Made by a program: the position numbers and the translations under genes. DNA of 40,134 bases from Actinomycetota bacterium (lineage in GTDB: Bacteria; Actinomycetota; Thermoleophilia; RBG-16-64-13), in the NCBI GenBank assembly GCA_018830645.1, contig JAHJSA010000098.1, forward strand, positions 1 through 40,134, read 5' to 3'. The notes beneath the pieces were generated by a model. That model did no database searches. It saw only the letters and a list, made by a program, of their open reading frames with translations, and was not told where the DNA came from. This document shows, piece by piece, positions 3,759-33,629 of the stretch. The first letter of the stretch is position 1. Every line of letters starts with the position of its first letter.

Positions 3759-4337
3759 ATGTTCCAGCGTGACTACATCTTGCGGAACGTGGAGCAGCTC
3801 TCCTCCGTGCTGGCGAAGATCCTGAAGAGCGGGGCCGCCGGTGAACTGGAGGAGGCAGAGGTCCAGATTGCGACCGCCGGGAGACTCTTCCTAGGGTTCG
3901 ACGTAGGTCTCATCCTGAATCTGTCCGAAGAGAGTGCCTTGGCCCTTGTGAGGCAGAGGGATGACGGGGACGCAGGCGCATACGTCGTTGCTGCGGAGCT
4001 CTTCAGAGAACAGGGTGATCTGCTCGAGCTGAAGGCCGGCGCGAACGCCGGGCACGACAGCTACGTGAAGTCATTGAACATGTATGAGCGGATGCTGAGC
4101 AGCCTCCTGCGCTACTTCGAAACGACTGGAGAGTACGCGCGGGCGGAGGATGTGCTCTTTCGACGAATCGGCGACGGGGATCCTGACCTCGTCGAGCATG
4201 CGGACCTCGTCGAGCGAGGGATCGGGTTCTACCTCCGCCTGCTTTTGAAGCCCGATCAGGAGTTGGTCGAAGGCGGTCTTCCCCGCGATGAGGTAGAAGA
4301 GGGTCTGGAGACGTTGCGGGGGATGCGTGCGCGATGA
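3759..4337 (+). CDS. DUF6483-like protein
   Basis: The 192-residue, mostly helical soluble protein begins MFQRDYILRNVEQLSSVLAK, which resembles the DUF6483 family start (a Gln-x-Asp-Tyr-Ile-Leu-Arg-x-Ile/Val-Glu-Gln-Leu helix). The middle (about 100-165) contains TPR-like text: LNMYERMLSSLLRYFETT, then YARAEDVLFRR. Many Glu and Leu residues and no membrane segment or metal motif are seen. No biochemical role is known for the family. It converges with the broken kinase gene that ends at 4408; no strong terminator is visible in the 70 bases between them. Confidence 0.65.
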   Translation: MFQRDYILRNVEQLSSVLAKILKSGAAGELEEAEVQIATAGRLFLGFDVGLILNLSEESALALVRQRDDGDAGAYVVAAELFREQGDLLELKAGANAGHDSYVKSLNMYERMLSSLLRYFETTGEYARAEDVLFRRIGDGDPDLVEHADLVERGIGFYLRLLLKPDQELVEGGLPRDEVEEGLETLRGMRAR

Positions 4338-4407
4338 GCGGACTCGAGCTGTCCCGGGAGGTCAGGCGGGAGCGGACTTGAGGGTCCTCGCGTATGGCTC
4401 CGGGCCA

Positions 4408-5602
4408 CTACTGGGCAGCTACCGCCGAGACCTCGTGCGGCGGCTCTGAAACCTCGTGCGGCGCGTCCAGCGCGTCGCGCGTCCGGCGGAGGAGGTCTTC
4501 CGGCGTGAAGGGCTTCGCCAGGAACTCTATCCCCATTTCGGACGCGTCCGTCGGCAACAAGCGTGTCGCGAGGGTGGCCGGACATAAAGAGAGCCTTCAG
4601 GGACCCCTCTCGGCGCCGAGAGAGTTCCTGAGCGAGTTGATAGCCGCTTCTGCCCGGGAGCACCAAGTCGGTTAGTACAAGGTCGATCGCATCCGGATGC
4701 TCGGCGGCTGTCGCCACACCTTCCTCGAACGAGCACGCCTCGAGGACCCCATAGCCCTTGCTCTTGAGGATGCGGGCCACCAGGGAGCGGACTGCAGGCT
4801 CGTCTTCTACCACCAGGATGCACTCGCAGCCCCCGTCCGGAGCGATCGGAGCGGCGTCCCTTCTCCCGGCGGGCGCCCATACTGCGGGCTTGGAGGTGCT
4901 GGGCAGATAGATCTTCAGAGTCGTGCTCTTGCCGGTTTCACTTTCGATCGAGATCTCGCCGCCGCTCTGCTTGACGATCCCGTAGACGATCGACAGGCCG
5001 AGTCCGGTGCCCTTTTCCGCGTCCTTGGTGGTGTAGAAAGGCTCGAAGGCGTGAGTGACTGCCTCTTGAACCATTCCCGAGCCGGCGTCGGAGAAGACCA
5101 GCATCGCGTACGGGCTGGAGCCGACGTCGGGCCGACGACCGTTGGAGGCTATGTCAACGATGCTCGCAGTGGTCGTCTCGATGGAGATCTTCCCACCGTG
5201 AGGCATGGCGTCGCGGGCGTTGATGGCCAGATTCATGAGCACCTGCTCGATCTGTCCGGGGACGGCCTCCACCGTCACCGGAGAAGGATCGGACACCACC
5301 ACCAATTCGATGTCCTCGCCGGTCACCGGCCGCAGCAACCGGCACATGTCCAAGACCAATCGGTCGAGGTGGAACACCTTCGGGGCCAGCGGCTGCCGTC
5401 GGGAGAAGGCGAGGAGCTTCCGCGTGAGAGCATTCGCCCGCTCAGCAGCCGCGCGGATCTCGCTGAGTCCCTCATCGACGACGGTGTTCGCTTTCGCGGC
5501 CGGCTTGATGATGTCCGTCATCCCGATGATCACTTGAAGCAGGTTGTTGAAGTCGTGGGCGGCCCGCGCCGCCACGCGTAGGCGCGCACTGCTCGGGATT
5601 AC
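4408..5602 (-). pseudogene. 5'-truncated, frameshifted hybrid histidine kinase
   Basis: Read on the minus strand, this encodes an H-box (AAHDFNNLLQVIIGMTDI), a HATPase_c domain with N-box NLAINARDAMPHGG, G1 FSDAGSGM and G2 GTGLGLSIVYGIVKQSGG, then a response-regulator receiver with ILVVEDEPAVRS and phospho-acceptor Asp in DLVLTDLVLPGRSG. After MSGHPRDTLVAD the frame must shift at about 4548-4553 (one extra G) to continue as SEMGIEFLAKPFTPEDLLRR, which carries the conserved receiver Lys, to a stop at 4408-4410. No sensor or PAS/HAMP domain precedes the H-box: the sequence upstream runs straight into the divergent EamA gene. No good start codon is visible near 5600. Both lesions suggest a dead gene; a sequencing error could explain the frameshift but not the missing 5' part. 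Confidence 0.75.
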
Positions 5603-5704
5603 ACGGAGAGCGAGTGACGCGCCGACCGAGTCGTCCGACGTGGCGATTCTCGTGGTATCGTGACGGCTGTTACGTAGCCCCTTGTGGCTGAAAGGAACAC
5701 GCTG

Positions 5705-6751
5705 GTGTCGTCCCCTTCTCGCTCGCACGTCGTCGCGGCCTTCGCCATCATCTATCTGGTCTGGGGCACCACGTTCCTCGGCATCCACTACGCGATCGAG
5801 ACGCTGCCGCCGTTCTTCATGGGTTCCGTCCGCTACTTGATCGCAGGTGCGGCTCTCTACGGCTGGGCCCACTTCAGGAAGGCTTCACGGCCATCTGCGC
5901 ATCAATGGAAGACGGCGTTCATCGCAGGCGCCTTCTTCATGCTCATCGGCCAGGGCGGCGTTGCCTGGGGCCAGCAAAGCGTCCCAAGCGGGGTGGCGGC
6001 TGTCTTGGTGGGCACCATCCCCATGTGGATCCTTCTGCTCGAGTGGATCCGGCCGGGGGGCCGCAGACCGGGGCTCGTGGTGAGCGTCGGCCTGCTTCTT
6101 GGCTTCGTCGGCGTGGTCGTCTTGGTGGCTCCTTGGGAATCCGGGACGCAGGTGATCGATCCGCTCGGGGCTGCCGCAATCCTTCTCGCGGCGTTTGCTT
6201 GGGCGGTCGGATCGCTCTACGCGAAATCGGTGGAGTGGCCGGCGTCACATGCCCAGGCAGCGGGCATGCAGTTGTTTGCGGGAGGAGTGTTGCTGTTGGT
6301 GGCGGCGGTGATCGGTGGCGAATTGTGGGGATTGTCCCTGGTTGACGTCTCGATCACTTCCGCGCTCGCGGTGCTCTACCTGGTGGTGTTCAGCTCGATC
6401 ATCGCCTTCAGCGCGTACTCCTGGCTGCTCGGCGTGTGCCGCCCCACTCGGGTTGCCACCTTCGCCTACGTGAACCCGGTGGTGGCGGTGGGGCTGGGAT
6501 GGTTGTTCGTGGGCGAGCCGCTCACCGGGCGCATGCTGTTCGCCATGGCCATCACGATCGGAGCCGTCGCCCTGGCTTCCACCGGCACCGAGAGGGCCGA
6601 CTCCCCGGCTGCCCCGGCGATCGAGGCGCCGTGCTGTTTCGACACGTCGGAGGATCCGGACGTGGTGCCCGTCGAACTCGAGCCTGAGCCACAGGCGGCG
6701 GCGGTGAGTACTTCGGTGCGCCCCGCTGGGGTCCATCCTGCCGGAGTCTGA
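5705..6751 (+). CDS. EamA (DMT superfamily) exporter
   Basis: A 348-residue integral membrane protein with two EamA repeats and about ten helices. The first helix contains YLVWGTTFLGIHYAIETLPP, the classic DMT/YedA-like opening; repeat two ends with AYVNPVVAVGLGWLFVGEP, the typical proline-containing helix and loop. Such proteins export amino acids or other small metabolites; the substrate here is unknown. I chose GTG 5705 because AAGGA sits eight bases before it; the frame is open back to GTG 5684. A polar tail of about 55 residues (two adjacent Cys, then Asp/Glu/Pro-rich) follows the last helix and is not part of the usual family length of about 300. Confidence 0.9.
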   Translation: MSSPSRSHVVAAFAIIYLVWGTTFLGIHYAIETLPPFFMGSVRYLIAGAALYGWAHFRKASRPSAHQWKTAFIAGAFFMLIGQGGVAWGQQSVPSGVAAVLVGTIPMWILLLEWIRPGGRRPGLVVSVGLLLGFVGVVVLVAPWESGTQVIDPLGAAAILLAAFAWAVGSLYAKSVEWPASHAQAAGMQLFAGGVLLLVAAVIGGELWGLSLVDVSITSALAVLYLVVFSSIIAFSAYSWLLGVCRPTRVATFAYVNPVVAVGLGWLFVGEPLTGRMLFAMAITIGAVALASTGTERADSPAAPAIEAPCCFDTSEDPDVVPVELEPEPQAAAVSTSVRPAGVHPAGV

Positions 6752-22440: not shown

Positions 22441-22461
22441 TAGCCTAGGAGGCTGGTGAAG
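22441..22461 (+). promoter_or_regulatory. -10-like TAGCCT and SD segment similar to the 8772 inverted repeat end
   Basis: TAGCCT (22441-22446) follows TGTGC, an extended -10 pattern. CTAGGAGGCTGGTGAAG (22445-22461) overlaps it, contains an AGGAGG and matches the left end of the 8772-8942 element at 16 of 17 positions. AGGAGG sits only three bases before GTG 22456. Confidence 0.35.
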
Positions 22462-22482
22462 ACGTGCCCACGAGGGATCGAG

Positions 22483-24084
22483 ATGACCGCACACCGAGAA
22501 GTAGTACTCTACGACACCACGCTCCGCGACGGCATGCAGCGCGAAGGCATGAGCGTGTCGGTGGACGAGAAGATACGTATCGCCCGTCGTCTGGCGTCAC
22601 TCGGCATCCACGTCATCGAAGGTGGCTTCCCCGGATCGAACCCGAAAGACGCTGAGTTCTTCGCCCGCATGGTCGACGTGGATCTCGGAAGCACGCTCGT
22701 GAGCGCCTTTGGGATGACCCGCGGCCGCGGCGTCGCCGCGGCCGACGACCCGGTACTTCGCACTCTGGCCGAGAGTTGGGCGCCGATGTCGTGCATCGTG
22801 GGGAAGACCTGGGCCCTGCACATCGAGAAGGTGCTCAAGGTCGACAAGGCTGAGAACCTGCGCATGATCGACGAGTCGGTGCGCTTCCTCCGGGGCGTGG
22901 GCAAGGAGGTCGTGTACGACGCCGAGCACTTCTTCGACGCGTTCGGTGAACACCCGGACTACGCCCTCACCTGTGTGCGCACCGCGGTCGAAGCCGGTGC
23001 TGGAACGGTGGTGCTCTGCGACACCAACGGAGCGACGCTTCCGGAGCGCCTGAGCCACGTCGTGGGTGAGGTTGTCGCCGTGATAGGCACAGGGGCGGTC
23101 GTCGGTATCCACACGCACAACGATTCGGCCTGCGCCGTGGCCAACAGCCTCGCGGCGGTCGAGCGCGGCGTTCGGCACGTACAGGGCACCATCAACGGGT
23201 ATGGGGAGCGCTGCGGCAACGCCGATCTCTGCGCGATCGTCCCCTCCCTCAAGCTCAAGATGGGCTACGACTGCATCTCCGACGAGAACTTGGCCGACTT
23301 GACTGAGGTGTCGCACTTCGTGGCGGAGCTCTGCAACATCTCTCCCGATCCCCACCAGCCGTATGTGGGCCGCAATGCGTTCGCTCACAAGGGCGGCCTG
23401 CACGTGGCCGGCATCGCGGCGGACCCTCGCACATTCGAGCACGTCTCGCCCCCCTTGGTGGGGAACGTGCCGCACATACTGGTCTCGGAGCTCTCGGGCA
23501 AGGGCACGGTCCGCAGACGCCTGGAGGCATTGGGGGTGTCGGGCACGTCGGGCGACGACGTGGTGGGGCGACTGCTGCAGCGGTTGAAGCAGAAGGAACA
23601 CGATGGCTACCACTACGAGGCCGCCGACGCTTCCTTCGAACTGCTCCTTCTGGCCGAACTCGGCCGGCGGGTCGAGTTCTTCCGCCTGGAGAGCTTCCGC
23701 ATCATCGTCGAGAAGAGGGCCGACGGCGCTGTGATGACCGAAGCCACAATCAAAGTGCACGTCGACGGCGACCGTGTCATCCAGACAGCCGAGGGCAACG
23801 GCCCCGTGAACGCGCTCGACCGCGCCCTCCGCTTGGCCATCGAGAAGAAGTACCCTCACCTCACCGATATCCACCTCGTGAACTTCAAGGTGCGTATCCT
23901 CGACGAAGACAAGGGGACCGCCGCCGTCACCCGCGTGCTCATCGACTCCTCCGACGGGCACGATTCATGGGGCAGCGTGGGTGTGAGCGAGAACCTCGTC
24001 GAGGCTTCCTGGCAGGCCTTGATCGACTCCGTGAACTTCGGACTCCGTCGCTCTCTGACCGACGAGAGCACCGACCGCCCGTAG
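22483..24084 (+). CDS. cimA: (R)-citramalate synthase
   Basis: The 533-residue enzyme condenses pyruvate with acetyl-CoA to citramalate, opening the threonine-independent route to isoleucine. The N-terminal TIM-barrel has VVLYDTTLRDGMQREGMSVS with the metal-binding Asp and catalytic Arg, VIEGGFPGSNPKD, and metal-binding His residues in GIHTHNDSACAVAN. VQGTINGYGERCGNADL is typical of CimA rather than LeuA. The C-terminal half has the LeuA dimer regulatory domain (about 410-525), usually feedback-sensitive to isoleucine. I prefer ATG 22483 because the family starts near here; GTG 22456, nine codons earlier with AGGAGG, is a real alternative. Confidence 0.93.
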   Translation: MTAHREVVLYDTTLRDGMQREGMSVSVDEKIRIARRLASLGIHVIEGGFPGSNPKDAEFFARMVDVDLGSTLVSAFGMTRGRGVAAADDPVLRTLAESWAPMSCIVGKTWALHIEKVLKVDKAENLRMIDESVRFLRGVGKEVVYDAEHFFDAFGEHPDYALTCVRTAVEAGAGTVVLCDTNGATLPERLSHVVGEVVAVIGTGAVVGIHTHNDSACAVANSLAAVERGVRHVQGTINGYGERCGNADLCAIVPSLKLKMGYDCISDENLADLTEVSHFVAELCNISPDPHQPYVGRNAFAHKGGLHVAGIAADPRTFEHVSPPLVGNVPHILVSELSGKGTVRRRLEALGVSGTSGDDVVGRLLQRLKQKEHDGYHYEAADASFELLLLAELGRRVEFFRLESFRIIVEKRADGAVMTEATIKVHVDGDRVIQTAEGNGPVNALDRALRLAIEKKYPHLTDIHLVNFKVRILDEDKGTAAVTRVLIDSSDGHDSWGSVGVSENLVEASWQALIDSVNFGLRRSLTDESTDRP

Positions 24085-24178
24085 CATCTGGAGCCCGGTC
24101 GCCGCGTCGCTCCGGCAGGCATCGGCCGTGCCCGGCGCCGCCATCGTGAGCCTTTGCCGCGAAGCCACCGTAAGAGGC

Positions 24179-24207
24179 TTGACACCCATCTCCCCTGAGA
24201 GTACACT
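24179..24207 (+). promoter_or_regulatory. Promoter of the feo operon
   Basis: TTGACA (24179-24184) is a perfect -35 hexamer. TACACT (24202-24207) follows after the ideal 17-base spacer. It is the best sigma70-type promoter I see in the window. Transcription would start about seven bases on, next to the TTAGG palindrome. Confidence 0.75.
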
Positions 24208-24218
24208 CTACTTATGTC

Positions 24219-24232
24219 TTAGGGATACCTAA
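24219..24232 (+). promoter_or_regulatory. Operator-like palindrome TTAGG-GATA-CCTAA for an iron repressor
   Basis: TTAGGGATACCTAA has perfect 5-bp arms around a 4-base centre and begins 12 bases after the -10, at the expected transcription start. TTAGG/CCTAA arms resemble the outer arms of DtxR/IdeR-type boxes, although the spacing is shorter than in the actinobacterial IdeR consensus. Placement before feoAB fits iron repression. The regulator is not encoded in this window. Confidence 0.55.
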
Positions 24233-24236
24233 CTTC

Positions 24237-24268
24237 GAGACCCTGTAAGCCCTGAGAGCAGGGGTCTC
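24237..24268 (+). other. Hairpin in feo leader RNA
   Basis: GAGACCC (24237-24243) pairs with GGGTCTC (24262-24268) around an 18-base loop, which can pair further (TG with CA). It ends 17 bases before the feoA ATG and 7 bases before its GGAGG. It might stabilise the mRNA or affect initiation. I see no known riboswitch fold in it. Confidence 0.4.
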
Positions 24269-24284
24269 ATTGTCGGAGGCGGAG

Positions 24285-24599
24285 ATGACGCTACTGCAGG
24301 CGAAACGGAACAGGCCGGTGCGGATCCTCGAGATCCCAGACGACCGTGCCCGCGCTCAGTGCGTGAGGTTCGGCATCGGGGAAGGCACCGTGGTCGATTC
24401 CGCCGAGGCGCTCGCCTCCGGGCCCGTGCTTGTGCGGCACCGCAACCAGGAGATCTGCTTGGGGCGCGGCTTGGCCTGCCGCATCTTGGTCGAGGAAGAT
24501 CCCAGTGACACCCGGGGGCGCAGCGGCGACGGCGACGCGACGGCTGAGGCCGCGCGCGGTCGTTTTCGCGGATGGCGCCGTCGGGGTCACTCGCGGTGA
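24285..24599 (+). CDS. feoA: FeoA, ferrous iron transport accessory protein
   Basis: The 104-residue protein has a FeoA SH3-like domain at about 1-72: LLQAKRNRPVRILEI, then RFGIGEGTVVDSAEAL and GPVLVRHRNQEICLGRGLA, which ends in the usual Ile/Leu-Gly-x-Gly-Leu-Ala strand. A basic Arg/Gly-rich tail (75-104) follows and is not typical. FeoA is a small cytoplasmic partner needed for FeoB function. ATG 24285 is selected because GGAGGCGGAG directly precedes it. It overlaps feoB. Confidence 0.88.
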   Translation: MTLLQAKRNRPVRILEIPDDRARAQCVRFGIGEGTVVDSAEALASGPVLVRHRNQEICLGRGLACRILVEEDPSDTRGRSGDGDATAEAARGRFRGWRRRGHSR

Positions 24600-26473
24600 G
24601 CGGAGGCTCGAACTCACACAGCTGCCACGGGTCCCAGGTCGTACAGGCCCCGCCTGGAGCACGCAAGATCGTCCTTGCCGGCAACCCGAACGTCGGTAAG
24701 TCCCTTTTCTTCAACGCCTTCACCGGTCTATACGTAGACGTGTCGAACTTCCCTGGCACCACCGTGACGATCTCGAGCGGAGTGATGGGTGACGACGTCG
24801 TGATCGACACCCCAGGGGTCTACGGTGTCTCCTCGTTCAACGAAGAGGAGATGGTGGCCCGCGACATCATCGCCGAAGCCGACATCGTGGTGAACGTGGT
24901 CGATGCGGTGCACCTCGAACGCGATCTGTTCCTCACTCAGCAGTTGATCGACATGGCCCTCCCCCTGGTGGTCGCCCTGAATATGGTCGACGAGGCCGAA
25001 GCCCGTGGCGTAAGCGTCGATGCCGTCGCGCTGGCCGAGCGGCTCGGGGTGCCCGTCGTGCCCACCATCGCCGTGGAGCGCAAGGGGTTCGACAGGGTGC
25101 GGGCCACGTTGGACGAGGCGGTGCCCGGCATATCGGACCCGGTGCTTCAGGATCGGCTGCTCTCCCTGCTCGATCGGGTGGGGACGAAGGCGGAAGCCCT
25201 ATTGGTGCTCGAGGGTGACCCTTACGTGGCCGAACGGCATGGGGTAGAGCCTCTTGGCATGCGGGACGAGATCTACATGGACCGGCGGCGGCGGGTGAAC
25301 GACATCGTCGCGCGCGTGGTGAGCCAACGTGACCGGAGCCTTGACCTGCGCACCCGGCTGGGTCATGCCCTCCTGCGGCCGCTCACCGGCATCCCGGTGC
25401 TCCTCGTGGTGCTGTGGTTGATGTACGAGGTGATCGGTGTGCTGGTGGCCCAGACCATCGTCGGCTTCACCGAAGGCGTGGTCATGCAGGGATACGTGGA
25501 GCCCGCCCTTCGAGCGGCTGCGGCCGCCGTTGTGGGCACCGGCGTGATCTTCGAACTCATCGCGGGTGAGTTCGGCGTGGTCACCCTCACCATCACCTAC
25601 GTGCTGGGGCTGTTGCTGCCTTTGGTCGTGGGCTTCTACCTGATGCTCTCCGTGTTGGAAGACTCCGGCTATCTGCCGAGGATCGCGGCCCTCACCGACC
25701 GCCTCATGACGGCGATCGGGCTGAACGGTCGGGCCATCATCCCGATCATCCTGGGGTTCGGCTGCATCACCATGGCGACCATCACCACCCGTATCCTGGG
25801 CAACGAGCGGGAGCGCAAGATCGCGACCGCGCTGATGGCGTTCGCTATCCCGTGTTCGGCTCAGTTGGGCGTGATCGTGGCTCTGCTGGCCGCGGCCGGT
25901 GGTCTCGGGATCACCATCGCGTACGCGACCATCATGTTCCTCGTGTTCGGCCTCATCGGACTTGCGCTCTCCCGCTACCTGCCGGGCTCGTCGACCGACC
26001 TGCTCATCGATCTGCCACCGTTGCGCCTGCCGCGGCCCATGAACGTGCTCACCAAGACCTACCACAAGACGGTCATGTTTCTGCGGGAGGTCGTCCTCTA
26101 CTTCGCGGCGGGCGCGCTCCTCCTCGCCACCCTCCAGCTGACCGGCGCGCTCGAGGCGGCGCAGGTGGCATTGGCTCCGCTCACCGAGACGTGGCTCAAC
26201 CTTCCTCGGGAGACGGCGACCGCCTTCATCATGGGCTTCGTGCGCCGTGACTTCGGCGCCGCCGGTCTCTACGACCTGGGGCTTGGAGGCGCGGCCACCC
26301 TGGTGTCCCTGGTCACCATCACGCTGTTCGTGCCCTGTATCGCTTCTGTGTTGGTGATCATGAAGGAGCGGGGTCGGGCCTTCACGGTGTTCACCTGGGT
26401 GGGCAGCGTGGTACTCGCCTTCCTCGTGGGCGGGATCGTGGCCCGCGTACTCGTGCTGGCCGGGGTGGTGTGA
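24596..26473 (+). CDS. feoB: FeoB, GTP-dependent ferrous iron transporter
   Basis: The 625-residue inner-membrane Fe2+ transporter has the cytoplasmic G-protein domain with G1 GNPNVGKS (about residue 30), G2 region NFPGTTV, G3 DTPGVYGVSSFNEEE, and G4 ALNMVDEAE. A helical spacer follows, then two Gate regions: PIILGFGCITMATITTR with FAIPCSAQLGVI, and FIMGFVRRDFGAAG with LFVPCIASV. The conserved Cys in these segments lines the proposed iron path. GTG 24596 overlaps the feoA stop (GTGA), as in other couplings here; ATG 24572 is an alternative start that would overlap feoA by 28 bases. Confidence 0.94.
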   Translation: MSGGSNSHSCHGSQVVQAPPGARKIVLAGNPNVGKSLFFNAFTGLYVDVSNFPGTTVTISSGVMGDDVVIDTPGVYGVSSFNEEEMVARDIIAEADIVVNVVDAVHLERDLFLTQQLIDMALPLVVALNMVDEAEARGVSVDAVALAERLGVPVVPTIAVERKGFDRVRATLDEAVPGISDPVLQDRLLSLLDRVGTKAEALLVLEGDPYVAERHGVEPLGMRDEIYMDRRRRVNDIVARVVSQRDRSLDLRTRLGHALLRPLTGIPVLLVVLWLMYEVIGVLVAQTIVGFTEGVVMQGYVEPALRAAAAAVVGTGVIFELIAGEFGVVTLTITYVLGLLLPLVVGFYLMLSVLEDSGYLPRIAALTDRLMTAIGLNGRAIIPIILGFGCITMATITTRILGNERERKIATALMAFAIPCSAQLGVIVALLAAAGGLGITIAYATIMFLVFGLIGLALSRYLPGSSTDLLIDLPPLRLPRPMNVLTKTYHKTVMFLREVVLYFAAGALLLATLQLTGALEAAQVALAPLTETWLNLPRETATAFIMGFVRRDFGAAGLYDLGLGGAATLVSLVTITLFVPCIASVLVIMKERGRAFTVFTWVGSVVLAFLVGGIVARVLVLAGVV

Positions 26474-26767: not shown

Positions 26768-26796
26768 TTGACAGGGCCTTCCACTCCTGGTGAAAT
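26768..26796 (+). promoter_or_regulatory. Promoter of FAH-family gene and sensor
   Basis: A perfect TTGACA (26768-26773) is followed after 17 bases by TGAAAT (26791-26796). The pair lies about 50 bases before the GTG at 26849 and is the natural promoter for the two overlapping genes downstream. Confidence 0.55.
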
Positions 26797-26848: not shown

Positions 26849-27628
26849 GTGAAGCTCGCTCGGATCCGGTCAGCGAACCTCGTGCTCGAAGCCGAGGTGG
26901 TCGATGGAGCCTATCGAGTGGTGGGCGGCGACCGCGCGGGTATGGTGCTTCTTCCGCAGGACGTGGTCCTGCTCCCCCCAGCCGTCCCCACGAAGATCCT
27001 CGCCGTAGGCTGGAACTTCCCCGCGCATATCGACGAGATAGTGGCGCGGCTGCCCAAGGACAAGTTCAGCGACGTTCCCGACGAGCCCATCATCTTCCTG
27101 AAGCCACCGTCGAGCCTCATCGGTCACGGCGACCCCATCGTCTATCCTCGCGAGGGCACCAAGGTGGAGCATGAGGGTGAACTCTGTCTCGTGATAGGGC
27201 GGCCCGCCCGTCGGGTGTCGCCCGCGGAGGCTCCACGGGTGGTGCGCGGGTGGTGCTGCGGCAACGATGTGACCGAACGCGACCTGCAGCGCAAGGACCG
27301 GCAGTGGTGGCGGGCGAAGGGGTTCGACACGTTCGCGGCGATCGGTCCGTACCTGGAGACGGAGGCTCCCGACCCAGACGCGTACATCCGCACTCTCGTG
27401 GGCGGTGAGGTGCGTCAGGAAGGTCGTGTACGTGACATGCTCCGCCATCCGTACGAGATCGTGTCGTTCATCAGTCAGGCGATGACGCTCCTGCCGGGCG
27501 ACGTGATCATGCTGGGGACACCACCGGGAGTGTCAGAGATCCACCCGGGTGATGAGGTGGTCGTACAGATCGAGGGCTTGGACTCCTTGAGCAATCCTGT
27601 CGTGGCCGAGGACCAGGCCGGGCCGTGA
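26849..27628 (+). CDS. Fumarylacetoacetate hydrolase (FAH) family enzyme
   Basis: The 259-residue protein has the FAH fold. KILAVGWNFPAHIDE opens the domain; EPIIFLKPPSSLIGHGDPIV is the family's FxKPxxSL segment. The metal-binding acidic residues are in VEHEGELCLVIGRPARRV, followed by GWCCGNDVTERDLQ. The C-terminal part has LLPGDVIMLGTPPGVSEIHP. Members hydrolyse or decarboxylate 2,4-diketo acids, oxaloacetate or acylpyruvates; the substrate is unknown. GTG 26849 is chosen because GGGAGAGGA precedes it and the alignment starts at once. An ATG 27 codons upstream lies inside the promoter. The stop overlaps the sensor start by four bases (GTGA). Confidence 0.88.
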   Translation: MKLARIRSANLVLEAEVVDGAYRVVGGDRAGMVLLPQDVVLLPPAVPTKILAVGWNFPAHIDEIVARLPKDKFSDVPDEPIIFLKPPSSLIGHGDPIVYPREGTKVEHEGELCLVIGRPARRVSPAEAPRVVRGWCCGNDVTERDLQRKDRQWWRAKGFDTFAAIGPYLETEAPDPDAYIRTLVGGEVRQEGRVRDMLRHPYEIVSFISQAMTLLPGDVIMLGTPPGVSEIHPGDEVVVQIEGLDSLSNPVVAEDQAGP

Positions 27629-29943
27629 GCCTTCTCCGTCGCATCGTCCTGCTGAACGCCGCCGCGATGCTCGTCGTGACCGTCGTGCTCGTGGTGGGCG
27701 TGGGCATCGTGGAGGGGCAGCGGCATGCGGAGTCCGCGATGCGGGAATCCATGTTGACCGCCGACCTCGTGGTGGCCGCCATGGCTGCGGGTGACCTCGA
27801 GGGGTCAACCAAGGACCTCTCACTCCTCCTGAAGGACGTCTCGGAGCGGTTGGCTCGATCTGCAGCCGGGGCCTCCACCCCCGATCCTCTGGATATCGCT
27901 GTGACCGATGTCACCGGTCGAGTCTTCGCATCCACCGGCGAACACCCGCCCGGTGCACAGTTCGAGGGGGCGCCGGGGCCGATCGCCGACGGAGTTCCGC
28001 GAGAGCGGCAGGTGGTATTCCGGGTGGAGTCGGAGACGGGTACGCGCACCTACTGCGCCGTATCGGTGGAGTACAGGGGTTCCACCTTGGTCGTGATCGT
28101 CGAGCATCCGGAGGGCGCCGAGACCGGCTCCCTCTGGCGTGTGCTTGTCGGATTCGGGATCGCGGGGTTGACCGGGGGCGCGCTGTTGCTCGCGCTCGAG
28201 GCAGGTCTCCTCAGTCGTTGGATCGTGGCACCGTTGAGTCATCTCCGGGTCGCCATGGAATCGCTGGGCTGGGGATCGTTCTCGACGAGGCTTTCGGCCG
28301 ACCAGGGGCAGGAGATGGTCGAGGTGGCCGAGGCGTTCAACGCGATGGCGGGCAGGTTGGACGAGATGTCAGATCGAAGGCTGGAACTCGAACTGCTCGC
28401 AGAATCTCTCGGACCCGGACTGATCTTGAGCGACCCCGACGGTGTTGTGAAGTGGGCCAGTCAGCGGGCGGCGGACCTCCTGAATATCCCGGTACGAGAG
28501 ATGAAAGGGGCGCGCCTCACGACCCTCGTCTCCGATCCGGGCGTCGTGCGGGCGGCGATCCGAGAGGACGGAGGCGGCCTCACTCCGTGGGCCGACGAGC
28601 TGGTGTTAGAGGCACCCGGGGAAGAGCGTCGCTGGCTGAGTCTGCGCGGTTTCCCGCTCGTGAACGAAGACGGCAGGCGCCTCGACCATGCCGTGGTGGT
28701 GATGGATGAGTCGGGCTCGCGGGAGTGGCGCGAGGAGCAGCGCCGACTGGTGGCGGCTCTCAGCGACTCCAATCGGGTCCGCGGCGGGCTCTTCCAGCTG
28801 ATCAGGGGGGAGTTCGGCGCGCGGCTTGCCGGACTCGCTCATCATGATTGGGAGGCCCGCGAGATGCTCGCCCTGGTCGACGAACTCGGCGACATGGATG
28901 TGGGCTACCTTCGGGCCGTCATCTCCGATTGCGTCGTCGCCGACCTTGTCGATGCCGCGCTGGAATCGCGGGCCGTACTGGCAGCGAGCCGAGGCATCAA
29001 TCTCGAGGTGAGAGCCGCTCGCATCGATGTACTCGGCGACCCGGATGGTCTGGTGCGGTGCATCGGCCATGTACTCAGTGCAGCCTTCTATCTGACCAGG
29101 CATTCAGTGCTCGTGGAGACGAGCATCGATCAGGCCTCCGCGCGGGGCCGACGGGTCCGCCTCGACGTGGAGGTGCGCGACCCGGCTCTGACGCCCGATG
29201 AACTCAGAGAACTCGTATCGGGTCCCTTGGACGCGGCCGTCCTCGGTATGGGGCCGGGGGTCTTCGGGTTGGCGCTCTACTTGGCGGCGCGTCAGTCGGT
29301 GGTCCTAAGAAGTGAGTTCGAGTTGCGGGAAGGGGAGGAGGGGTCGCTGATCATCGGGGTACTCATGCCGCTCAACCCCCTCGCCCCCGAGGCTCAGACG
29401 GGAACGCCTCAGCGCCACAGCCAATGGGGAGGCGCGTTCGCCGACCCTTTGACCGGCCTGGCCTCCCGGATCACATTCGAGAGGACTCTCTCCGAGGAGA
29501 TGCATCGCGCCTCGAAAACGACTCGAAGTCTGGCGCTTCTGGCCCTCGAAGTCGACGACTTCGAGGAACTCGGCCGCGTCCACGGCAGGGACACGGGCGA
29601 CCGCCTCATCAGAGAACTCGCCGACTTGGCGAGGAGATCACTGCGCAAGGATGACCTCGCAGGCCGTGTTCGCGAGACGACGGTCATGATCCTGCTGCCC
29701 GATTCCACGGAAGCGGTGGCGAGCGCTCTCGCCGAGAAGCTCAGCTGGACCATCGGCAGGCATATCTTCGCGACTCCGGCGAATCGACCCATAGGTCGGT
29801 TCACCGTGAGCATAGGCATCGCCACCTTCCCCGAGAACGGCGCGTTCGCCCGGGAGCTCATGCTTCAGGCTGAGACCGCCCTCGCGGATGCCAAGGAAGG
29901 CGGCGGCAACCAGGTGAAAGCGGCCGGATCGCACCTCGTCTGA
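27625..29943 (+). CDS. Membrane sensor: HAMP, PAS, degenerate kinase-like and degenerate GGDEF domains
   Basis: The 772-residue protein has helix 1 at about 5-28, an extracytoplasmic sensor region to about 168, helix 2 at about 170-192, a HAMP linker (SRWIVAPLSHLRVAMESL on), and a PAS domain at about 255-365 (GLILSDPDGVVKWASQRAAD). Residues about 385-585 resemble a kinase module: GDPDGLVRCIGHVLSAAFYL aligns with the N-box but its Asn is replaced, and the Asp-x-Gly motif reads Asp-Pro-Ala. Residues 600-770 align with GGDEF domains (DPLTGLASRITFERTLSEEM), but the active-site motif is RETTV at about 683-687 before MILLP. Neither module should be catalytic. It may bind a nucleotide or act as an adaptor. 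The start overlaps the FAH-family gene. Confidence 0.8.
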   Translation: MSLLRRIVLLNAAAMLVVTVVLVVGVGIVEGQRHAESAMRESMLTADLVVAAMAAGDLEGSTKDLSLLLKDVSERLARSAAGASTPDPLDIAVTDVTGRVFASTGEHPPGAQFEGAPGPIADGVPRERQVVFRVESETGTRTYCAVSVEYRGSTLVVIVEHPEGAETGSLWRVLVGFGIAGLTGGALLLALEAGLLSRWIVAPLSHLRVAMESLGWGSFSTRLSADQGQEMVEVAEAFNAMAGRLDEMSDRRLELELLAESLGPGLILSDPDGVVKWASQRAADLLNIPVREMKGARLTTLVSDPGVVRAAIREDGGGLTPWADELVLEAPGEERRWLSLRGFPLVNEDGRRLDHAVVVMDESGSREWREEQRRLVAALSDSNRVRGGLFQLIRGEFGARLAGLAHHDWEAREMLALVDELGDMDVGYLRAVISDCVVADLVDAALESRAVLAASRGINLEVRAARIDVLGDPDGLVRCIGHVLSAAFYLTRHSVLVETSIDQASARGRRVRLDVEVRDPALTPDELRELVSGPLDAAVLGMGPGVFGLALYLAARQSVVLRSEFELREGEEGSLIIGVLMPLNPLAPEAQTGTPQRHSQWGGAFADPLTGLASRITFERTLSEEMHRASKTTRSLALLALEVDDFEELGRVHGRDTGDRLIRELADLARRSLRKDDLAGRVRETTVMILLPDSTEAVASALAEKLSWTIGRHIFATPANRPIGRFTVSIGIATFPENGAFARELMLQAETALADAKEGGGNQVKAAGSHLV

Positions 29944-29997: not shown

Positions 29998-30027
29998 TTG
30001 AGGCTCGGGAGCCGTTCCTGCTAGAAT
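29998..30027 (+). promoter_or_regulatory. Promoter of dnaE
   Basis: TTGAGG (29998-30003) and TAGAAT (30022-30027) are 18 bases apart; TGC before the -10 adds an extended element. The leader to the dnaE start is about 105 bases and includes the 14-bp palindrome CCCCGCGCGCGGGG at 30062-30075. Confidence 0.5.
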
Positions 30028-30137: not shown

Positions 30138-33100
30138 GTGGACGTGAGCCACGTGATCGAAGCGCCTGCGGCCAAAGCCGCGTTCTGCCACCTGCACGTG
30201 CACACCGACTTCTCGGCGCTCGACGGCGCCTGCAAGATCGACGAACTCGTGGCCAGGGCCGTGGAGTACGGTATGACGGCCGTGGCCGTCACGGACCACG
30301 GCGTGCTCAGCGGCGCGGTGCAGCTCTACCAGAAGGCCGTCGCAGCCGGAATCAGGCCGATCATCGGGCTGGAAGCCTACGTGGTGGAAGACCGGTTCCA
30401 CAAGGAAGAGGGCCACAAAGAGCAGCGGTGGCATCTGACCCTCCTCGCCGCGGACGACGCGGGCTACCGGAACCTCCTCGCGCTCTCGAGCCGGGCCTTC
30501 CTCGAGGGCTATTACGGCAAGCCGCGCATGGACTACGAACTGTTGCGCGAGCACTCCGAGGGGCTGATCTGTCTTACGGGTTGTCCGGCCGGGCGTCTTT
30601 CGCGCGCCTTGGAGCACGGGAGTATGGTCGCCGCCGAAGAGGAGATCGAGCGGCTCATCTCCATCTTCGGCCGTGAGGATGTGTACGTAGAGATCCAGAT
30701 CGCCGACATCCCGGAACTTGCGCACGTCCCGGCCCGGCTCGCCGAACTCGCCGAGCGCGTGGGGTTGCCGCTGGTGGCCACGAACGATGTGCACTATCTC
30801 GCCGCGGACAACGCCGCCGCACACGACGTGCTCCTCTGTATACAGACCGGCTCTCGCCTCGAAGAGGAACGCCGTCTGCGCTTCTCGTCGCAGGAGTTCT
30901 ATTTCAAGAGCGAGGCCGAGATCCTCGAGGCGTTCAAGGACTATCCCGAGGCGGTCGCCAACACGATGCTTGTGGCTGAGCGCTGCGACGTGCACATCGC
31001 ATTCGATCAGATCCTGATCCCGCAGTACGGCGCGCCCGAAGGATACGGGAGCGAGTCCGAGTACCTTCGCGCCCTGTGCGAGGAAGGTCTTGCGGCCAGG
31101 TACGGGGACGCGCCTTCTCCCGAGGTGCTCGAGCGCCTTGAGATGGAATTGGGCGTGATCGACGCCATGGGATTCCCGCCCTACTTCCTCATCGTGTGGG
31201 ACTTCGTCTCCTTCGCGAAGCGTTCGGGCATCCCTGTGGGTCCGGGTCGCGGCTCCGCCGCCGGATCGATCGTGTCGTACCTGCTCGGCATCACCGACCT
31301 GGACCCTCTGGCCTACGATCTGCTCTTCGAGCGCTTCCTGAATCCGGCGCGCATCAGCATGCCCGATATCGATATCGACTTCTCTGTGGACGGCCGGGAG
31401 AAGGTCATCGAGTACGTGGCCGACAAGTACGGGCGCGATCGAGTCGCGCAGATCGCCACGTTCGGCACCATCAAGGCCCGCCAGGCGGTTCGTGACGCGG
31501 CTCGGGTCATGGATGTGCCGTACGCTGTGGCCGATCGCATCGCCAAACTGATCCCCGAGGGGCCGAAGGTCACGCTCGACGATTGCATGCGCGAGAAGCA
31601 GGATCTGCGCATGGAGTGCGAGGCCGACGAGACGGTGCGCAAGGTGGTCGAGATGGCGCGACCCCTGGAGGGTCTCATCCGCCAGGACTCCATCCACGCC
31701 GCGGGTGTCGTGATCTCCGACCGCCCACTTACCGAATACCTGCCCCTCATGCAGAAGGGCGCCGCCGAGGTGGTCACGCAGGTGCCCATGGGCGACGTGG
31801 AGAAGCTCGGGCTGCTCAAGATGGACTTCCTCGGCCTGCGGAACCTCGACGTGATCGCCGGGGCCGAGGCTGTGATCAGAGCCAGCGGGCATCCTGAGTT
31901 CGACCTCCCGTCGGTGCCGCTGGACGACAGCAAGACCTATCGCATGCTCGCCGCCGGCGATTCGGAAGGAGTGTTCCAGTTCGAGTCGAGTGGCATGCGC
32001 GAGGCGCTGCGGGAGGTGGGGCCCACCGTCTTCGAGGACCTCATCGCTCTGGTGGCTCTCTACCGGCCCGGCCCGATGGAGTACATCCCCCTGTACGCGA
32101 AGAACAAGCGGAGCCCCGACGCCGTGGTCTTCCCCGACCCCAGGCTCGAGCCGATCCTGCGCGCCACATACGGTGTGGCCGTGTACCAAGAGCAGCTCAT
32201 GGAGATCGCGAAGCGCATCGCCGGCTTCACGCCTTCGGAAGCCGACGATATGCGCAAGGGCATCGGCAAGAAGATACATGCGATCCTCGACCGGTTGGAG
32301 CCCAAGTTCCGCGAGGGCGCGCTGGCCAGTGGCACCACCCCAAAGGTGGTGAACCACCTGTGGTCGCTCATCGAGAAGGCCGGCGACTACTCCTTCAACA
32401 AGTCGCACGCCGCGTGCTACGCGCTGATCGCCTACCGCACCGCATACCTCAAGGCCAACTACCCCGTGGAGTACATGGCCGCGCTGATCTCGAGCGTCAT
32501 GAACACCAAGGACAAAGTGCCCTACTACGTGAGCGTGGCCAACGAGATGGGCATCGAGGTGCTGCCTCCCGACGTCTCCGAGTCGGCGCTCGACTTCCGC
32601 GTGGTCGATGGCAAGATCCGCTTCGGCCTGACCGCCGTGAAGAACGTGGGGGAGGGCGCCATCAGGCTCATCATCGAGGCGCGCGAGAAGAGCGGCCCCT
32701 TCCGCGACATCTTCGACTTCTGCGAACGCGTGGATGGCGGCGTTCTGAACAAACGGGCCATCGAGGGTCTCATCAAGGGTGGTGCACTCGACTCCACGGG
32801 TGCGTCGCGCAGGGGCATGCTGCAGGTGTTGGCTCAAGCGATGGCCAACGGCCAGAAGACTCAGGCCGACGCGGCTACCGGCCAGGGGTCGATATTCGAT
32901 CTCATGGGCGGCGACTCGGGCCCTGCCGATGACGATGCGGCGGTCTCACGCCGACCGGTTCCCATACCGGAAGAGGATTTCACGAGGGAGGAGCTGCTGC
33001 GTCTCGAGAAGGAAGCGCTCGGCATCTTCCTCACCTCGCACCCGCTGCGCGACCTGCGCCGGCAGATACGTGACGAGGCGGAGCATCTGATCCACGAACT

Positions 33101-33629
33101 TGCCGACCTGCCCGACGGGCAGGTGACCACCATAGTCGGTATGGTGGGCCGCGTGAGGAAGGTGCCAACGAAGTCGGGCGATCAGATGGCCTTCATCATC
33201 CTTGAAGGACTCGAAGGCTCTATCGAGATCACCTGCTTCCCCAAGCTGTACTCCGAAGCGCGCTCTCTGCTCGAAGAAGACCGCCTGGTGAAGATACGCG
33301 GTCGGGTCGAGCGTCGCGAGGAGAGCGAAGCAAAGCTCATCCCCTTCAGCGTCGAGCCGTTCGTCCCCAAGACCGGCACCGAACCGGTGTGCATCAAACT
33401 CGACGGCCGGCAGGTGCCGCGCACGGTTCTTGACGACCTCAAGGTGATCCTGGCCAACTTCCCAGGGCCTTGCCCGGTAGACGTGCACGTGGAGACAGGC
33501 CAGGACCACCTGCGCCTTCGGTTCGGGAAGGGCTTCCGTGTCGACCCGCAAACCAGCCTCTTCGCGGAGTTGCGAGTCTTGCTCGGGGAAGCGGGGGTGT
33601 TCCGCTACCAGCCGACCCCGACGGGGTGA
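30138..33629 (+). CDS. dnaE: DNA polymerase III alpha subunit
   Basis: The 1163-residue replicative polymerase is of the DnaE1 type. The PHP domain opens with HLHVHTDFSALDGACK, keeping the His pattern. VGPGRGSAAGSIVSYLLGI is the conserved palm region, and MPDIDIDFS holds two catalytic Asp residues (about 410 and 412). AGVVISDRPL, GLRNLDVIAGAE, SFNKSHAACYALIAYRTAYL and the C-terminal OB domain (VTTIVGMVGRVRKVPTKSGD) follow in order. No intein is present. GTG 30138 is the best start: the family begins about 15 residues later with the PHP strand. AGAGGA lies about 12 bases upstream. The gene stands alone with its own promoter. Confidence 0.97.
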   Translation: MDVSHVIEAPAAKAAFCHLHVHTDFSALDGACKIDELVARAVEYGMTAVAVTDHGVLSGAVQLYQKAVAAGIRPIIGLEAYVVEDRFHKEEGHKEQRWHLTLLAADDAGYRNLLALSSRAFLEGYYGKPRMDYELLREHSEGLICLTGCPAGRLSRALEHGSMVAAEEEIERLISIFGREDVYVEIQIADIPELAHVPARLAELAERVGLPLVATNDVHYLAADNAAAHDVLLCIQTGSRLEEERRLRFSSQEFYFKSEAEILEAFKDYPEAVANTMLVAERCDVHIAFDQILIPQYGAPEGYGSESEYLRALCEEGLAARYGDAPSPEVLERLEMELGVIDAMGFPPYFLIVWDFVSFAKRSGIPVGPGRGSAAGSIVSYLLGITDLDPLAYDLLFERFLNPARISMPDIDIDFSVDGREKVIEYVADKYGRDRVAQIATFGTIKARQAVRDAARVMDVPYAVADRIAKLIPEGPKVTLDDCMREKQDLRMECEADETVRKVVEMARPLEGLIRQDSIHAAGVVISDRPLTEYLPLMQKGAAEVVTQVPMGDVEKLGLLKMDFLGLRNLDVIAGAEAVIRASGHPEFDLPSVPLDDSKTYRMLAAGDSEGVFQFESSGMREALREVGPTVFEDLIALVALYRPGPMEYIPLYAKNKRSPDAVVFPDPRLEPILRATYGVAVYQEQLMEIAKRIAGFTPSEADDMRKGIGKKIHAILDRLEPKFREGALASGTTPKVVNHLWSLIEKAGDYSFNKSHAACYALIAYRTAYLKANYPVEYMAALISSVMNTKDKVPYYVSVANEMGIEVLPPDVSESALDFRVVDGKIRFGLTAVKNVGEGAIRLIIEAREKSGPFRDIFDFCERVDGGVLNKRAIEGLIKGGALDSTGASRRGMLQVLAQAMANGQKTQADAATGQGSIFDLMGGDSGPADDDAAVSRRPVPIPEEDFTREELLRLEKEALGIFLTSHPLRDLRRQIRDEAEHLIHELADLPDGQVTTIVGMVGRVRKVPTKSGDQMAFIILEGLEGSIEITCFPKLYSEARSLLEEDRLVKIRGRVERREESEAKLIPFSVEPFVPKTGTEPVCIKLDGRQVPRTVLDDLKVILANFPGPCPVDVHVETGQDHLRLRFGKGFRVDPQTSLFAELRVLLGEAGVFRYQPTPTG

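Follow-up and report, generated by a model that had tools for sequence, protein, structure and literature searches.

Pseudo-kinases and inactive GGDEF domains are each already known as receptors. LapD-type receptors are membrane proteins with a HAMP domain and two inactive output domains (a degenerate GGDEF and a degenerate EAL domain), and in these traits the protein described here is alike. DivL signals without kinase activity, its kinase fold sensing a phosphorylated response regulator (PMC4211667). In SgmT, an inactive GGDEF domain binds c-di-GMP via its RxxD motif and thereby positions the kinase (PMC3509222). ATP hydrolysis was reported for a degenerate GGDEF domain joined to a DHH/DHHA1 phosphodiesterase (PMC10333796). 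No paper on a chain pairing a dead kinase with a dead GGDEF domain was found in the open-access literature. A conserved chain with neither module active would offer a natural test of two-component and c-di-GMP wiring by binding alone. Such a chain is proposed here, in four genomes of one family.

The gene was studied in a DNA stretch of 40,134 nucleotides (the window), a single contig of a 3.87-Mb draft genome. A first-pass annotation had described a HAMP-PAS sensor with two inactive output modules, and the open reading frame was confirmed, as were both named domains with Pfam. The layout is TM–extracytoplasmic domain–TM–HAMP–PAS–histidine-kinase-like module–GGDEF, as follows.

27625..29943, + strand: sensor gene, GTG start, 772 aa (orthologues aligned)
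27625..28206, + strand: TM1, extracytoplasmic mixed alpha/beta domain and TM2 (aa 1-194; AlphaFold secondary structure)
28207..28362, + strand: HAMP domain (aa 195-246; Pfam E 9.3e-9)
28384..28707, + strand: PAS domain (aa 254-361; Pfam PAS_9 E 1.3e-7, PAS_4 E 6.6e-7)
28717..28920, + strand: DHp-like helical hairpin, shortened (aa 365-432; alignment with same-genome kinases and model)
28921..29379, + strand: CA/HATPase-like domain (aa 433-585) with shortened lid and partial G2 (GPGVFGLALYLAAR)
29434..29913, + strand: GGDEF domain (aa 604-763; Pfam E 1.5e-28)
29644..29655, + strand: I-site RKDD (RxxD, aa 674-677)
29671..29685, + strand: A-site RETTV, standing for GG(D/E)EF (aa 683-687)

Residues 1-194 are the structured part that evolves fastest, both by per-segment identities and by dN/dS (0.23, window versus G001, the orthologue of the same genus). 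Sequence searches of the PDB and Pfam with the extracytoplasmic domain gave no convincing match; sCache_3_2 was hit weakly in one orthologue (E 0.076-0.13) and not in the window copy. A resemblance to the Cache domains of CitA/DcuS type is only an impression.

The kinase-like module was aligned with some 20 kinases encoded in its own genome. At the phospho-acceptor site, where HisKA-type kinases of this genome read SHE, SHD or AHD, the His of the H-box is replaced by Asp381 (28765-28767), a loss that the first-pass annotation had overlooked. It had rightly reported two other losses, of the N-box Asn and of D-x-G: the former is Ala486 (29080-29082), with Ala in all four known copies, and the latter site (aa 517-521, 29173-29187) reads V-R-D/D-P-A and lacks the Gly. 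The F-box is absent as well, as is most of the ATP lid, and G2 survives in part (GPGVFGLAL in the window copy), within a segment FGLxLYLAAR that is invariant in the four copies. The residue set of an active histidine kinase is not present, and what is left would be a kinase-like pocket stripped of its nucleotide motifs.

The fold of this module seems to have outlived its motifs. No Pfam family was matched by aa 365-585 of the window copy, and HATPase_c was matched weakly (E 0.016) in one of the four orthologues, the window copy being missed. A profile built from the four orthologous stretches detected by sequence the GacS kinase (7z8n, E 1e-4) and CusS (7zp0, E 0.0035) in the PDB. Since the full-length AlphaFold model had a mean pLDDT of 58.7, the separate domains alone were used. 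The model of the kinase-like module, built from the four sequences alone, reached a pTM of 0.71 with a pLDDT near 90 in the CA part; DHp is uncertain, with a low pLDDT (46-62). Foldseek placed RetS first (6dk7, E 3.3e-11), followed by CpxA, ZraS, GacS and CusS; 289 PDB chains were matched at E<=0.001, those listed being histidine kinases. VIA-align gave Z scores of 15-17 for histidine kinases, with HprS (Z 17.2, 206 residues, rmsd 5.6) and DivL (4q20; Z 17.0, 200 residues, rmsd 5.8) among them. The module is thus modelled as a histidine-kinase fold with a DHp hairpin followed by CA.

In the GGDEF domain, RETTV aligns in register with GG(D/E)EF of 11 paralogues from the same genome, nine of which are canonical, which bears out the earlier reading of this motif. 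Within the DxDxFKxxND segment of the window copy, Glu642 stands where the metal-binding Asp would be, and Gly650 replaces the guanine-binding Asn. All three features of an active diguanylate cyclase (A-site, metal-binding Asp and guanine-binding Asn) are therefore missing from this copy. The A-site reads RERTV in G001, RGGTF in G013 and RGNAF in G012; the metal-binding Asp is kept in G012 and G013, the guanine-binding Asn only in G013. The GGDEF fold is retained (Foldseek, DgcB 6tts, E 2.6e-12, TM 0.87 by target), so that both folds proposed for comparison in the first-pass annotation were found.

The three orthologues are 83% (G001), 45% (G013) and 41% (G012) identical to the sensor. G013 and G012 represent two further genera, and the four copies span three genera of one family. 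The frame is open, with no stop codons, in all four genomes, and the phospho-acceptor site reads D, D, Q and E. Catalytic residues of both modules are lost in every copy, and judged by these residues both modules appear inactive, as had been claimed. For the pair of window and G001 copies, dN/dS amounts to 0.10 in the DHp-like hairpin, 0.09 in the CA-like domain, 0.17 in the GGDEF domain, which is more loosely constrained than the CA-like domain, and 0.15 overall, while neighbouring enzyme and transporter genes range from 0.06 to 0.09. Measured in this way, constraint on the pseudo-kinase is similar to that on the active neighbour genes, although its dN and dS are both higher than theirs. Because the losses are common to all orthologues and the gene is under purifying selection, they are old and do not reflect recent decay.

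Homologues with intact motifs would imply such decay; a sample of about 760 genomes from the order, class and phylum yielded none. The pseudo-kinase profile was run against three overlapping genome sets: 18 from the order, 299 from the class and 396 from the phylum. Apart from the four copies it returned just weak matches (E 1e-5 to 1e-8), which were judged by coverage and frame lengths, and not by individual annotation, to be ordinary kinases. A two-module profile was searched in 399 and 396 genomes, the four best candidates per genome being scored, and beyond the four copies its matches cover the GGDEF part. Two of them, in G356 and G027, extend further upstream; read by eye, both look like membrane proteins that carry a HAMP-like segment and a GGDEF-type motif of canonical form, and no kinase module could be recognised in them.

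Given the two retained folds and the lack of an intact-motif homologue, a scaffold or receptor is the best reading, as first proposed. The nucleotide binding proposed with it held only in part, RxxD being present in three of the four copies and the motifs of the kinase pocket being lost. The sensor is best explained as a membrane-anchored, non-catalytic signalling adaptor (probability roughly 0.6), a reading drawn from the four known sequences, in which unusual residues might still support catalysis. Since both modules are under selection in four genomes despite the loss of catalytic residues, it probably acts by binding partners. The extracytoplasmic domain, HAMP and PAS would pass conformational signals into the pseudo-histidine-kinase module, which would neither take nor pass on a phosphoryl group and could instead bind a partner, for example a response regulator or a second kinase. 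The pseudo-GGDEF at the C-terminus would make no c-di-GMP and may serve as a docking or dimerisation domain; in copies that keep RxxD, including that of the window, it is possibly a c-di-GMP-sensing input. No partner was identified, and no partner gene adjoins the sensor gene. A hybrid kinase (HisKA, HATPase_c, receiver) is encoded in the window at 4259-5869 on the - strand, about 22 kb from the sensor, and is a possible partner.

It is somewhat unlikely that the protein is primarily a c-di-GMP receptor, in which binding at the RxxD I-site switches or localises the pseudo-kinase in the manner of SgmT or PopA. The window copy does combine a degenerate A-site with an intact RxxD, as expected from the sequence of such I-site receptors, and SgmT provides a precedent. 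The motif is RKDD in the window and G001 and RATD in G013, and every copy has Lys at the secondary I-site position. The ligand is also probably at hand: the genome encodes 16 GGDEF domains, most of those aligned being canonical, and one protein that reads as GGDEF-HD-GYP, from which c-di-GMP production is expected. The latter (L002, G000:C59:16872-17579) carries GGDQF followed by an apparent HD-GYP domain in a single 532-aa frame. Against this reading stands G012, where the site is GKND; the last D is invariant but the primary Arg has become Gly, and c-di-GMP binding therefore cannot be the function common to the four, unless the site moved. Moreover, RxxD occurs in all 11 aligned GGDEF paralogues of the genome, so its retention may simply be inherited, and constraint is looser on the GGDEF domain than on the CA-like one. 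Overall, the sensor may bind c-di-GMP, but not as a conserved trait. The genome encodes another GGDEF protein (L006, G000:C97:28638-29108) whose A-site is broken (GGRLA) and whose RxxD is intact, and G001 contains a match of equal size, a 691-aa frame.

More speculative, and unlikely as it stands, is a lineage-specific receptor made wholly of disabled enzymes, in which the pseudo-kinase and the pseudo-diguanylate cyclase would merge an extracytoplasmic signal with c-di-GMP and, through contact alone, pass the outcome on to a kinase or response regulator acting as partner. If true, this two-module receptor would join two-component and c-di-GMP signalling without catalysis.

The gene neighbourhood bears on the proposal that the sensor detects the substrate or product of the FAH-family enzyme encoded just upstream and is coupled to it. 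The flanking features are as follows.

22456..26473, + strand: CimA/LeuA-like synthase, FeoA and FeoB, upstream flank (Pfam)
26849..27628, + strand: FAH-family gene (PF01557; Pfam E 3.6e-61; start backed by the G012 orthologue)
30138..33629, + strand: dnaE, downstream flank (Pfam; kept at every orthologous locus)

The longest open reading frame of the FAH gene begins at 26768; the alignment with G012 backs 26849. The FAH stop and the sensor start have four bases in common, GTGA (27625-27628), an overlap of the length that the first-pass annotation had stated, and this overlap is identical in the window, G001 and G012, all three genomes showing both genes, even at 41% sensor identity. The order FeoA-FeoB-FAH-sensor-dnaE is likewise the same in G001 and G012, and the G013 contig starts inside the sensor and runs on into dnaE. 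The FAH-sensor pair thus recurs in two other genomes. A close FAH orthologue (at least 53% identity) is nevertheless present in 14 of the 18 family genomes, 11 of which have no sensor. In these 11 it lies next to CimA, except for two in which it lies next to the FeoAB genes following CimA. The place behind it is filled in seven by a DUF985 cupin-type ORF (PF06172), assigned by Pfam in one (E 4.8e-38) and by the common EGG(Y/F)(Y/F)RETY motif in the others; these ORFs lie between FAH and dnaE at L104, L105, L109, L111, L112, L113 and L114. In three other sensor-less genomes the gap between FAH and dnaE is near-empty (149-178 bases).

The contents of the slot that follows FAH seem exchangeable, and FAH, being kept without the sensor, does not depend on it. 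This weakens coupling to FAH as the main explanation. Evidence for a ligand was not found in the sequence, searches of PDB and Pfam having allowed no ligand domain to be assigned, and the GTGA overlap may point to shared expression and not to a shared metabolite. Of the earlier suggestion, the conserved overlap therefore stands, and the sensing of a related metabolite is quite improbable. No relevant report on an operon of FAH and a diguanylate cyclase was found among open-access papers. From FeoB to dnaE no terminator-like site was found, which says little at this G+C content, and Rfam gave no RNA elements over the window. A sigma-70-like match lies between sensor and dnaE (29998-30027; two matches in the scanned region versus 0.6 expected), and dnaE may therefore have its own promoter.

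Still less probable is that one module retains another activity, either ATP hydrolysis by the pseudo-GGDEF, for which the DHH/DHHA1-linked protein (PMC10333796) is a precedent, or nucleotide binding in a remodelled CA pocket, as the invariance of FGLxLYLAAR might suggest. None of the four copies has kept the N-box, D-x-G, F-box or lid, and the metal- and guanine-binding residues of the GGDEF domain are replaced or vary among copies. A recently decayed gene without function, as loss of all catalytic motifs might be read, can be ruled out for practical purposes by the frame open in three genera, the losses common to the four copies and the dN/dS values.

Compared with known systems, the adaptor proposed here shares features with several of them. 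RetS of Pseudomonas has receiver domains and no GGDEF domain, unlike the sensor. Its kinase region was the best Foldseek match of the kinase-like module, at a sequence identity of about 20%, and the RetS-GacS co-complex in the PDB (7n0e) indicates that RetS contacts another kinase. LapD is listed among degenerate EAL receptors; its second dead domain is an EAL that binds c-di-GMP, whereas that of the sensor is a kinase module. DivL of Caulobacter has, like the sensor, a PAS input and a DHp-CA fold without the phospho-acceptor His (structure match Z 17.0). DivL differs in that it retains the N, G1, F and G2 boxes, with Tyr in place of His, and has no GGDEF domain; the sensor is devoid of the N-box, D-x-G, F-box and lid and carries a GGDEF domain at its C-terminus. 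SgmT of Myxococcus likewise joins a histidine kinase module to a C-terminal GGDEF domain with a broken A-site and an RxxD I-site; its kinase is active (H336 is needed), and it is a cytoplasmic protein with a receiver domain, whereas the sensor has a dead kinase module and no receiver and is predicted to be membrane-bound. By analogy with these proteins, the most likely reading is that the sensor combines, in dead forms, a kinase part of DivL or RetS type with an SgmT-type GGDEF domain.
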